Source: Archaeoglobales archaeon (lineage in GTDB: Archaea; Halobacteriota; Archaeoglobi; Archaeoglobales; Archaeoglobaceae). Taken from it: a stretch of 64,000 nt of DNA. The stretch spans positions 1 through 64,000 of the forward strand of contig JASFYJ010000002.1 in assembly GCA_030055525.1 (NCBI GenBank), in the 5' to 3' direction. The position numbers and the translations under genes are program-made. This document shows, in pieces, positions 28,990 to 53,524 of this stretch. Every line of letters begins with the position of its first letter. The first letter of the stretch is position 1. Under the pieces are notes generated by a model that was not told the DNA's origin, did no database searches, and saw only the letters and a list, made by a program, of their open reading frames with translations.

Positions 28990-29465
28990 TATTAGATCTG
29001 CTGGAATGACTGTAAGGTTTTTCTTCTTCCAAAGATACCGAGCTTTTTCACTTTTTGTGTAAAAATTATCATCTTCTTGCTCTTTCCTCGATCACCTTCC
29101 CAAGATCACTATCAATCCCAGCCTCGATCACTTCTGCACAGTCAAACTCTTCAAAAACTCTGCAGGGTTAAGAGCAGCCTTACACTTCCAGCATCTTTCC
29201 CTTTGTGGTTCGTTGAATTCACCGCAAACTCCGCAAACAACAGGCTGAAGTTTTCTTGACTTCAGACTCTCCTTCCTCTTCTTTTATCACTCCAAGCTCT
29301 TTCATATTCCAGTGTGTCTGAACTTGTAAGGACTGAAAACCCTTTTTTTGATCCCAGCCCTCTTCATAAGCCCGTCGATGATCCTCCTGTAAGCAAAATA
29401 GTCCACTGGAGCAATGATCCCTTTCTTGAATTTATTGAGGTCGATCCATGCAGGAGCTTCCCCAT
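28990..29465 (-). pseudogene. Broken archaeal tyrosine integrase
   Basis: The complement encodes APAWIDLNKFKKGI, then YFAYRRIIDGLMKRAGIKK, then SPYKFRHTG, the RH box of tyrosine recombinases, followed by a stop. After a deletion of the region that would hold the second catalytic part and tyrosine, a different frame gives VCGVCGEFNEPQRERCWKCK, the zinc ribbon found at the C-terminus of many archaeal integrases. Catalytic residues are missing, so it is inactive. It ends about 90 bases from the 3' end of tRNA-Cys, the usual place for an integrase gene of a tRNA-integrated element. Confidence 0.6.
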
Positions 29466-50330: not shown

Positions 50331-51071
50331 TTGAAACTCTACATCTTGGACTTCGGGAGAATAATCGCACCCAAGGCTTGGATATACACTCTAGAAGGAT
50401 TGGAGAAGATAAGCGGTGCAATGATGGGGCATCTGATAGTGCATCCCAAAGATGGTTTGATTTTGTATGAAACAGGTATCCCTCCGAATTATGAAGATCT
50501 TTGGCCAAAAGTTGTGTTGGAAACTTTTCCAATAGGAGAATACAAAAAAGAGAATAGGCTGGATGTAATTTTATCCAAAATAGGATATAAATTAAGCGAT
50601 GTATCTGCTATAATACTTGGGCATGCACATTTAGACCATGCTGGAGGGTTGGAGTTCTTCAGAGGATTAGACGTTCCAATATACATCCACAAAAGAGAAC
50701 TAGAATACGCTTTCTGTTCTGTTGCTACAAAAGAAGATTTTGGTGCTTATTTACCGCACTACCTCGATTTCTCATTTAACTGGAAAGTTATCGACGATGA
50801 TGAAATCGAGCTATTTGACAACGTATTTTTGTATCACACGCCAGGACACACACCTGGTCTTATGAGTATGCGCGTAGAGCTTAAAGAGAAAAACTTCCTA
50901 ATGACGAGCGATCACGCAAGCACTCGAGACAATTTCGAGAAGGAAGTACCGATTGGTTTTGGAATGAGAGATTTTGAAGATTGGAGAAAGAGTACAAGGA
51001 AACTAAAGTACATTGCGAAAAAGTATAAAGCCAATGTAATTCCCTTTCAATCCCATCTTGGTCTGATTTGA
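50331..51071 (+). CDS. Metallo-beta-lactamase fold hydrolase, lactonase-like
   Basis: A 246-residue protein, N-acyl homoserine lactonase/AttM-like. Metal ligands: H-x-H-x-D-H in LGHAHLDHAGG, His in HTPGHTPG and Asp in TSDHAS. The last eight residues, FQSHLGLI, and the stop come from the first CRISPR repeat. The family's last ligand His sits in a GHD motif at the end; here only the repeat-encoded His is available. The TTG start has AGGTGA upstream. It probably shares a regulator with the reductase gene. Substrate unknown. Confidence 0.8.
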   Translation: MKLYILDFGRIIAPKAWIYTLEGLEKISGAMMGHLIVHPKDGLILYETGIPPNYEDLWPKVVLETFPIGEYKKENRLDVILSKIGYKLSDVSAIILGHAHLDHAGGLEFFRGLDVPIYIHKRELEYAFCSVATKEDFGAYLPHYLDFSFNWKVIDDDEIELFDNVFLYHTPGHTPGLMSMRVELKEKNFLMTSDHASTRDNFEKEVPIGFGMRDFEDWRKSTRKLKYIAKKYKANVIPFQSHLGLI

Positions 51072-51276
51072 ACTCTACGTGTACCAGGCTTCAAACATGA
51101 GCAATGTAACCTTTCAATCCCATCTTGGTCTGATTTGAACTATTTTAATCCGTATGGAATACAGATCAAAAATCGAACTTTCAATCCCATCTTGGTCTGA
51201 TTTGAACGTTGATTTTCTCAAGAAAAACCTTTCTATTATCGCTATGCTTTCAATCCCATCTTGGTCTGATTTGAAC
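51044..51276 (-). CRISPR. CRISPR array, 4 repeats and 3 spacers
   Basis: Four identical 30-base repeats at 51044, 51111, 51178 and 51247, beginning CTTTCAATCCCAT and ending CTGATTTGAAC on this strand. Spacers are 37, 37 and 39 bases. On the minus strand the repeat ends in ATTGAAAG, the usual 8-base handle of type I archaeal crRNA, so transcription should run leftward from an AT-rich leader at 51277 onward. From memory the repeat is near-identical to an A. fulgidus repeat. No cas genes are in the window. All four repeats are exact, so there is no degenerate end repeat. Confidence 0.95.
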
Positions 51277-52024
51277 CCTTATGAATTTTTACTTCTTTCT
51301 CAATTTAAAGCTTTCTAATGCCTTCTCTTATTTATATACTCTCGCAAACCTCCAAAGTTGCGAGTCATTTATAAAGGTATGCGACTTTTTTCTTCGCATT
51401 CTTTTTAAATTTTATTGAATTTAAAAAGCTTTTTTTAAAATCGAAGAAATTTCATCAGGGTAGAGCTTAAGAATAAAAATAGAAAAGCCTAGATTTGCGA
51501 GAGGAGGAAGTATAAAAAATAAGTTTTTGTAATAATAAAGGAAAATTTTATCGCGTGCGACTTGCTATTTTGGCTTTGATTTTGATTTAAGGCTTTTAAA
51601 AGGTTTTTTGTTGAGTTTTGGGGGATTTGCTTGGGGATGGGTGATAATTTTTCGGTACTTTTATTTATATCAGAAAATTTATATATTCTTTCACCTGCTC
51701 AGGGTGGATTTAGTTTATTGCGAAGAGCAAGGGGATGAAAAATCTTTGAATTTATCTTTACGATGATCTCTAGGCTTTTGAAGAGATGAGATTTTTCTTA
51801 GCTATTTATATTTTCAGAGATACCTAAAAAGAGGCCGAAATTGGAGTTTTAAAATCTAGATTATTGGTCGACTTGACATTTTTATGAACTATTTCAATGT
51901 GGATTTGAATTTGAATCGGAATTTCTTTATAAACCTTGCAAAGTTCTGTTTTCATTCACATGCATACAATTTACTTTTTTAAACTTTTGTAAAGATTTTT
52001 TAATTCAAACATGCCATATGATCT
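51277..52024 (-). other. CRISPR leader and gene-free stretch
   Basis: About 750 AT-rich bases without a gene. On the minus strand an AGTATATAAATAAG TATA element at about 51330-51342 would start the CRISPR transcript near 51305, about 30 bases before the first repeat. TTGCGAG/GCGACTT words recur at 51341, 51358, 51379, 51494 and 51554, as in conserved leader motifs. Beyond 51600 nothing is recognised except AT-rich sequence leading to the next gene. Confidence 0.6.
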
Positions 52025-53524
52025 GTGGTAATAGGTATAGATGTCGGTGGTACAAACACTGATGCAGCGATAATTGGAGAAAATTTTGCAACTTTTAAGC
52101 TACCAAATGAAGTTGGCATGGCTGAAGTTTTGAAAGAAATTTCGAAAAAAGTGGATTTAGCGAAAGAAAAGGTCGTTGTGAGCACATCTCTTCCACTTAA
52201 TTTAGTAATTTCGAAGTTTAGTGAAATAAAGACACTTCCGATATTGGCTCCAGGACCTGGGCTAAACTACTCAAACTACGGTTTTGTTGTGAGAGGGTTC
52301 GTAAACCATAGGGGAGAGCTAGCTGAAGACATCGACGAGGAGGAGATCGAAGAACTTCTGAAATCCAAGCAATACGAGAACGTAGCTATAGCAGCAAAAT
52401 TTTCTCCAAGAAATTCTATAATTGAAGAAAAAATAAAAAAGATCGCAAGCCGTTACATTGAAGAATCTAGAATTGCATGCAGTTACCATGTAGGATCCCT
52501 AAATTATCCGGCAAGAATAAACACCACCTTAATAAATGCTAAAACAAAACCCATAGTTTACGATCTCACAACTTCGATTAAAAAATTTGTAAAAGAGTTC
52601 TACTACTTCACTGGAGATGGTGGAATCGTTCCTGATATAATTGCAGTGGAAAATCCGTCTTTGTTGTATAACTCGAGTGCTGCAGCGGTAGCTGTCGGCG
52701 CAAGTTTTCTTACAGGAGAAAAGGATGCTTTGATAATTGACATAGGTGGCACTTCGACAGATTTTGTATTACTAAAAGATGGGATGCCAAAAATAACTGA
52801 CTGTGTTGAGATATACGGAAAAAAAACACTTATAAGGTGTGCCGATTCTGTAAGTATCCCTTTCGGTGGCGATTCTTTAATAGATGGGCGCATAAAACCA
52901 GTTAGATTGGACAAACCGATTGCTTTTGGTGGAAAGTATTTCACCTTTACTGATGCTTTAAACTGTCTAGGCTATGAAATCGGCGATTACAGAAAATCTA
53001 GAGACTTTAAAAAAGATTTCAACTGTGAAGCCGTCTTTGATCAGTTTATAAGCGTTGCTTCTGAAGTTGTATCAATGTTCGAAGCAGATAAAATTGTTGC
53101 CGCAGGTTACCTTTCCCCAATTCTTGTTCCAGAGATAGCGAAGAGATGCGGTATAAGATGTATAGTTCCAGAACATTACGGAGTTGTAAATGCCATAGGT
53201 GTTGCAGTGTCAAAGATCAGTCTTCAGATGTATGCAAGATACGATACAGAAAAAGGTATTGCATCTTTTAATGGAAAATTGGAGCGTTGCCCGTTTAGGG
53301 TGGGAAAAATACCAGAAAAGGAGGAGATATTGGATGTTACGATTTCAAAACTTTATGAAATTGCAAGAAACATCGGAGCGGATGAATCTGAATTCGGAAA
53401 TCCGAAAATTCTCTATTTTAATTCCTATACTATAGTTAGGGGAAACATGAGGAGAGGTTTGATTGCAGATGTTGTAGCCCAACTTGAGCCGGGGATAAGG
53501 TATGAACTTAGAAGACTTCTGTGA
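52025..53524 (+). CDS. Hydantoinase/oxoprolinase-type ATPase
   Basis: A 499-residue protein of the hydantoinase A / acetone carboxylase beta type (actin-like ATPase fold). First phosphate loop is GIDVGGTNTDAA near the start; the second is IDIGGTSTDFVLL near residue 240. SIPFGGDS lies between. Hydantoinase A is usually longer (650+), so this is a short archaeal version. No B subunit is next door. The GTG start at 52025 is used. Confidence 0.82.
   Translation: MVIGIDVGGTNTDAAIIGENFATFKLPNEVGMAEVLKEISKKVDLAKEKVVVSTSLPLNLVISKFSEIKTLPILAPGPGLNYSNYGFVVRGFVNHRGELAEDIDEEEIEELLKSKQYENVAIAAKFSPRNSIIEEKIKKIASRYIEESRIACSYHVGSLNYPARINTTLINAKTKPIVYDLTTSIKKFVKEFYYFTGDGGIVPDIIAVENPSLLYNSSAAAVAVGASFLTGEKDALIIDIGGTSTDFVLLKDGMPKITDCVEIYGKKTLIRCADSVSIPFGGDSLIDGRIKPVRLDKPIAFGGKYFTFTDALNCLGYEIGDYRKSRDFKKDFNCEAVFDQFISVASEVVSMFEADKIVAAGYLSPILVPEIAKRCGIRCIVPEHYGVVNAIGVAVSKISLQMYARYDTEKGIASFNGKLERCPFRVGKIPEKEEILDVTISKLYEIARNIGADESEFGNPKILYFNSYTIVRGNMRRGLIADVVAQLEPGIRYELRRLL

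Follow-up and report, generated by a model that had tools for sequence, protein, structure and literature searches.

The window, that is, the whole stretch of 64,000 nucleotides analysed here, comes from a thermophilic archaeon and carries on its forward strand an open reading frame of 246 amino acids (50331-51071, TTG start) for a truncated lactonase-like protein of the MBL fold, which runs into a CRISPR array. The codons TTT CAA TCC CAT CTT GGT CTG ATT TGA, at 51045-51071, are contained in the 30-nt repeat CTTTCAATCCCATCTTGGTCTGATTTGAAC at 51044-51073, as a first-pass annotation had recognised when it read the final eight codons and the stop of the gene (FQSHLGLI) as CRISPR repeat: residues 1-238 are gene-derived and residues 239-246 repeat-derived. 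At the junction, between 51043 and 51044, the gene sequence ...AATGTAATTCC gives way to CTTTCAATC....

The array lies on the reverse strand and consists of four identical 30-nt repeats, starting at 51044, 51111 (to 51140), 51178 (to 51207) and 51247 (to 51276), separated by three spacers of 37, 37 and 39 nt (51074-51110, 51141-51177 and 51208-51246, respectively). The repeat, read as GTTCAAATCAGACCAAGATGGGATTGAAAG, has at its 3' end the handle AUUGAAAG, typical of archaeal crRNAs; this places the leader on the right (51277-51673, reverse strand), so that the repeat at 51247-51276 is leader-proximal and the one fused to the gene is the oldest. This leader-distal repeat agrees with the genome consensus at 30 of 30 positions and encodes FQSHLGLI-stop on the forward strand. 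Intergenic DNA (51674-52024) lies beyond the leader.

Throughout the genome the repeat was found in 86 copies, 85 exact and one with a single mismatch, arranged in six arrays, while a reversed-pattern control returned none, which identifies it as a genuine CRISPR repeat. The leader is present in all six arrays, the one in the window being 95-97% identical to the five others over 362-397 aligned bp. Past the leader, as right in front of the first repeat, each array is flanked by unrelated DNA, and all six abut the latter flank at a perfect repeat. On contig 10, cas2-cas1-cas4, a CARF regulator and cas11a-cas7a-cas5a-cas3'-cas3''-cas8a are found together; the combination of cas11a, cas7a, cas5a, split cas3 and cas8a points to type I-A, and one cas1 gene was found in the genome. 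Judged by repeats, leader and cas genes, the locus is classified as a type I-A CRISPR array. It resembles the type I-A systems of Archaeoglobus and Sulfolobales (family I, CC PAM) in its 30-nt repeat of the Archaeoglobaceae kind, its I-A cas cluster, its AT-rich leader of several hundred bp and the occurrence of several arrays with one leader type; it differs from them in that a truncated host gene has the leader-distal repeat as part of its coding sequence.

Recombination of array DNA in this genome is indicated by several spacers that are present in more than one array. Identical spacers were found in different arrays, and repeated within arrays, in L066, L067, L068, L069 and L070: spacers 34-35 of L066, for example, equal 8-9 of L067, spacer 25 of L066 equals 6 of L070, and spacer 8 of L068 equals 5 of L069, a sign of exchange between arrays. 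L070 (contig 10, near 140.5-141.5 kb) is a composite array of nine standard repeats, several variant ones (...CCCACCCTGGGTCTGATTTGAAC) and then the usual leader, placed behind this second repeat block, an arrangement which suggests fusion or conversion of arrays.

The hydrolase matches Pfam Lactamase_B at 2.6e-21, and the solved structures nearest to it are those of AiiA-type lactonases. The superfamily motif HxHxDH and the later His and Asp are present, as His98, His100, Asp102, His103, His173 and Asp194. Homology to MBL lactonases extends to Pro238, the last residue before the repeat-coded part, so that the overlap of the reading frame with the repeat is not that of a chance ORF. In a search of the phylum (392 genomes), 41 matches at E<=1e-18 were found besides the window's own, and 20 of them (L002, L071, L072 and L073-L089) were aligned. 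The two closest relatives, 58% identical in the search, match the protein up to Pro238. Where the window has Phe-Gln, all 20 have Gly-His (18 GHD, one GHE, one GHA), always followed by a further tail; in the two closest, 18 residues are present counting from the Gly, GHDPNVF...APEYY(D/S). The first-pass annotation was thus right that the last metal-binding His of the family belongs here, and that the repeat-coded His falls two residues from it. It had also proposed an alignment with full-length relatives to see what was lost, which is the GHD and the tail, 18 codons by the two closest relatives, and had named as contrary evidence array-free relatives ending at the same residue with the same tail; none of the 20 ends in this way.

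Comparison with relatives supports the view that the 3' end of the gene was cut off and capped by the oldest repeat of the array. The annotation had held that the array either invaded or trimmed the gene. Trimming agrees with the 18 additional codons of the two closest relatives; invasion is doubtful, as leader and growing end lie on the far, right-hand side, the gene is fused to the oldest repeat, and the tail is absent beyond the leader. The translated frames of 51674-52024 hold no trace of it, and it was found neither downstream, nor in the whole window, nor at the five other array loci. A genome-wide search with a degenerate GHDPNVF pattern, allowing up to 3 mismatches, did not find it either: the pattern, which diverged tail codons may escape, gave 5 matches, all at 3 mismatches, against 11 for the reversed-pattern control. 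These results bear on a possible relocation, in which a unit of leader and repeat(s), moving between loci, would have landed in the gene, with the tail lost later. Six arrays with the same repeat and the same leader, embedded in unrelated DNA on both sides, are what such a unit would produce. A simple insertion, however, would have left the tail beyond the leader, and inspection by eye revealed no target-site duplication; we consider relocation unlikely.

The first-pass annotation had further suggested that the repeat replaced a metal ligand, and that the site be modelled with the repeat-encoded His. Structure prediction by AlphaFold2, from the window protein and 19 of the 20 relatives (L081 was omitted because of its odd start), gave a model with a mean pLDDT of 90.5, which superimposes on lactonases of the AiiA/GcL type with Z of 30-33 and rmsd of 1.7-2.1. 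Residues 242-246, the first of which is the repeat-encoded His242, have pLDDT below 50. The equivalent of the lost GHD His in AiiA, His235, is a metal-2 ligand, according to the part of PMC3722983 considered here. That the repeat-encoded tail functionally replaces it, as a new metal ligand, is compatible with the open reading frame, with the retention of HxHxDH, His173 and Asp194 and with the presence of a His nearby. Yet this His is off register, two residues downstream of where the ligand should be, and within the poorly predicted end, the part behind GHD is gone too, two residues of the body shared by all 20 relatives are altered (Leu99Ala and Leu211Gly), and the position of the catalytic Tyr is occupied by Ser, so that a functional tail is hardly credible. 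The proposed replacement of a ligand is therefore not borne out, and there is no sign of a rescued metal site. Most likely, the enzyme lost a metal-binding site instead of gaining a new one: its second metal site is probably broken, making the protein inactive or altered, and we conclude that the window encodes a damaged or altered enzyme.

The two substitutions at invariant positions have no counterpart in L002 and L071, where the same test found none, while eleven such positions are altered in L072. The Ala replaces the Leu of HLHLDH; an N-terminal loop of L002 and L071 is, moreover, shorter by about ten residues in the window protein. Of the sites at which the two closest relatives have the same residue and the window another, 14 are window-derived and 5 pair-derived when polarised by L072, and 8 and 4, respectively, when polarised by the haloarchaeal majority. 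This weakly suggests faster change on the branch of the window hydrolase, a comparison which is not decisive, as it mixes the time before and after truncation.

The conserved lactonase Tyr (Tyr194 in AiiA, whose role is treated in the parts of PMC3722983 and PMC6062542 considered) corresponds to Ser197 in the window, to Phe in the two closest relatives, to His in L072 and to Tyr in the 17 haloarchaeal proteins. With Ser here and Phe in the two closest relatives, even the subfamily may not be one of AHL lactonases. By NCBIfam curated scores the hydrolase does not qualify as an AHL lactonase equivalog: it scores 113.8 bits on the AiiA model, against a cut-off of 375, and falls under the cut-offs of all the AHL lactonase models shown (AiiA/AttM/AhlS equivalogs). 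It is thus like AiiA/GcL-type lactonases in fold, HxHxDH and two further ligands, and unlike them in lacking the last His, the tail and the conserved Tyr, and in staying below these cut-offs.

The surroundings of the array are discontinuous. Of the 6 genomes from the genus that are shown to carry the gene following the array in the window, 5 have upstream of it a neighbour that we take to be Trm1-like, from the full reading frame in L123 and from 400 bases in the others; in L121 another gene, not Trm1-like, is found there. The array of the window lies at this synteny break. As the nine further genomes of the genus that were searched gave no match to the hydrolase at E<=1e-20, the DNA on the left of the array may be foreign. 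Near another array of the genome, L068 (contig 10, about 28.8-29.6 kb), a Mrp-like gene is 98.5% identical over 858 bp to that of G008, a genome of the same genus, compared with only 53% protein identity for the gene at window position 52025; we read this similarity as a probable recent gene exchange within the genus. The Mrp-like gene was considered as a second gene truncated by an array and rejected: its stop looks natural in comparison with G004 and L184, and the array begins about 40 nt past it.

Three marks characterize the junction: homology reaches the repeat edge with no filler, the repeat is complete and perfect, and the base triplet right after the corresponding position in the three closest relatives is TGG, TGG and AGG, respectively. 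L071 reads ...GTAATTCC|TGGACATGAT at this place, the window GTAATTCC|CTTTC. NGG here corresponds to CCN on the crRNA strand, and so sits where the PAM of a protospacer ending at the junction would be. NGG follows 4.9-6.5% of the positions in the hydrolase genes of these relatives, and, because the one at the junction belongs to a conserved Gly codon, its fit counts as a single event, for which the odds are about 1 in 15 to 1 in 20. The junction coincides both with the repeat edge and with the PAM position, as far as a PAM resting on one protospacer can tell.

All three marks would be explained at once by recombination of a self-spacer with its source gene, with deletion of the tail of the gene and of the old end of the array, a reading which we favour, though tentatively. 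A spacer would have been acquired from the hydrolase gene, from a protospacer ending ...GTAATTCC, whose PAM, CCN, is read on the opposite strand; the approximately 37 bp common to spacer and gene would then have recombined, so that the gene tail and its PAM, whatever DNA lay between, and the old array end were deleted. Occurring at the leader-distal end of the type I-A array, such a rearrangement would have cut 18 codons from the hydrolase and fused it in frame to what is now the oldest repeat, with the last stretch of the gene taking the place of the terminal spacer, no longer as a PAM-flanked target. Removal of the PAM would end self-targeting, and the deletion was possibly an escape from it. 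A perfect terminal repeat is also to be expected if it was recently internal, and the I-A cas cluster and the spacers shared between arrays speak for this reading too. We infer the presence of a self-spacer in the lost DNA and a role of self-targeting in driving, or selecting, the deletion; the truncation itself is probably a scar of recombination between array and gene. Against the reading stand the clean edges of all six arrays, each of which borders unrelated DNA with an intact repeat, so that the edge in the window could reflect a more general process, and the PAM fit, which is a single event. In the part of PMC3025118 considered here, a CC PAM is required for targeting in Sulfolobus family I, and survivors carry CRISPR deletions.

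An illegitimate deletion, in which end joining removed the DNA from the gene to the interior of the array, homology between spacer and gene played no part and the array edge is a coincidence, would require no self-spacer; it would suit the synteny break, and some other arrays of the family are clipped at their leader-distal ends. But the breakpoint would then have had to coincide with a repeat edge, which is about 1 in 67 positions within one array period, and also to lie next to an NGG in the gene, leaving the repeat untouched, which makes such an event somewhat improbable. An assembly artefact, joining a hydrolase contig wrongly to a repeat, might be suspected in a genome in 16 pieces, in which the array on contig 9 near 127 kb contains an N gap. 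A misjoin needs shared sequence, however, and the uncut relative and the repeat have no common run of bases at the junction; no N is present here, and the contig continues into a full leader and genes. We regard this explanation as very improbable.

Direct traces of a self-spacer were sought among 535 distinct spacers, 70 of them from the genome of the window, in about 0.86 Mb of DNA, corresponding to about a third of this genome and pieces of relatives. Spacer 39 of array L143 in G008 matches window positions 29205-29241 at 32 of 37 bases, with CCT just upstream; the five mismatches fall on every third base, from position 21. On the reverse strand, 29205-29406 reads, by eye, like the remnant of a tyrosine integrase, and the match and its CCT PAM indicate that it is probably the leftover of a targeted mobile element. 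This is the only convincing protospacer found for the repeat family, so that the PAM derives from one case, in a sister species. No other convincing match and no self-match was found in this search, and self-acquisition was thus not seen directly. Phage records gave no protospacers for one array of this genome and one of G013, and viral contigs scanned with the repeat and two spacers gave none, which says little, hot-spring viruses being thinly sampled. No intact hydrolase allele or empty site of the same species was found, and the predicted lost spacer was not seen.

Among 15 arrays with a visible leader-distal flank (6 from this genome and 9 from relatives, excluding L148, whose flank runs off the contig), only that of the window has its first repeat inside a gene with known homologues. 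In three arrays of relatives, L139, L142 and L147, the leader-distal repeat is clipped on its outer side, and is followed by one spacer length and the first full repeat.

In the portions of the literature considered, deletions caused by CRISPR targeting of self or selected DNA (PMC3630108, PMC6990116, PMC3025118), including deletion as an escape from self-targeting (PMC6990116), are similar in that target or spacer is lost; those in PMC6990116 and PMC3025118 lie in the target or between repeats, while in the window the target is joined to the array. Terminal repeats that are degenerate or truncated, found at the trailer end according to the part of PMC8047081 considered, likewise alter the leader-distal end of an array; in the window, in contrast, the terminal repeat is perfect and the neighbouring gene is cut. 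A limited search by title or abstract found no case of spacer-gene fusion.

The main interest of the locus is the junction, not the enzyme. A more speculative extension, which we think rather unlikely, is that the array captured its own target: a self-spacer would have recombined with its source gene, leaving the 3' part of the gene in place of the last spacer. Since reading of the array proceeds from the right, a readthrough transcript would contain antisense of the hydrolase gene; cut at the terminal repeat, it would start with the 5' handle AUUGAAAG and go on with this antisense. Provided that the cell has a type III effector, such a built-in crRNA-like RNA could silence the hydrolase mRNA. 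Should spacer-gene recombination not hold, the locus would be a plain case of array rearrangement damaging a gene. If it is true, the locus would preserve, as a fossil, an episode of CRISPR autoimmunity that was repaired with the array itself as partner; this would explain the clean, perfect leader-distal ends of arrays and the position of the array at a synteny break, and would predict a mark, made of gene, PAM position and perfect repeat, that can be searched for in all genomes.
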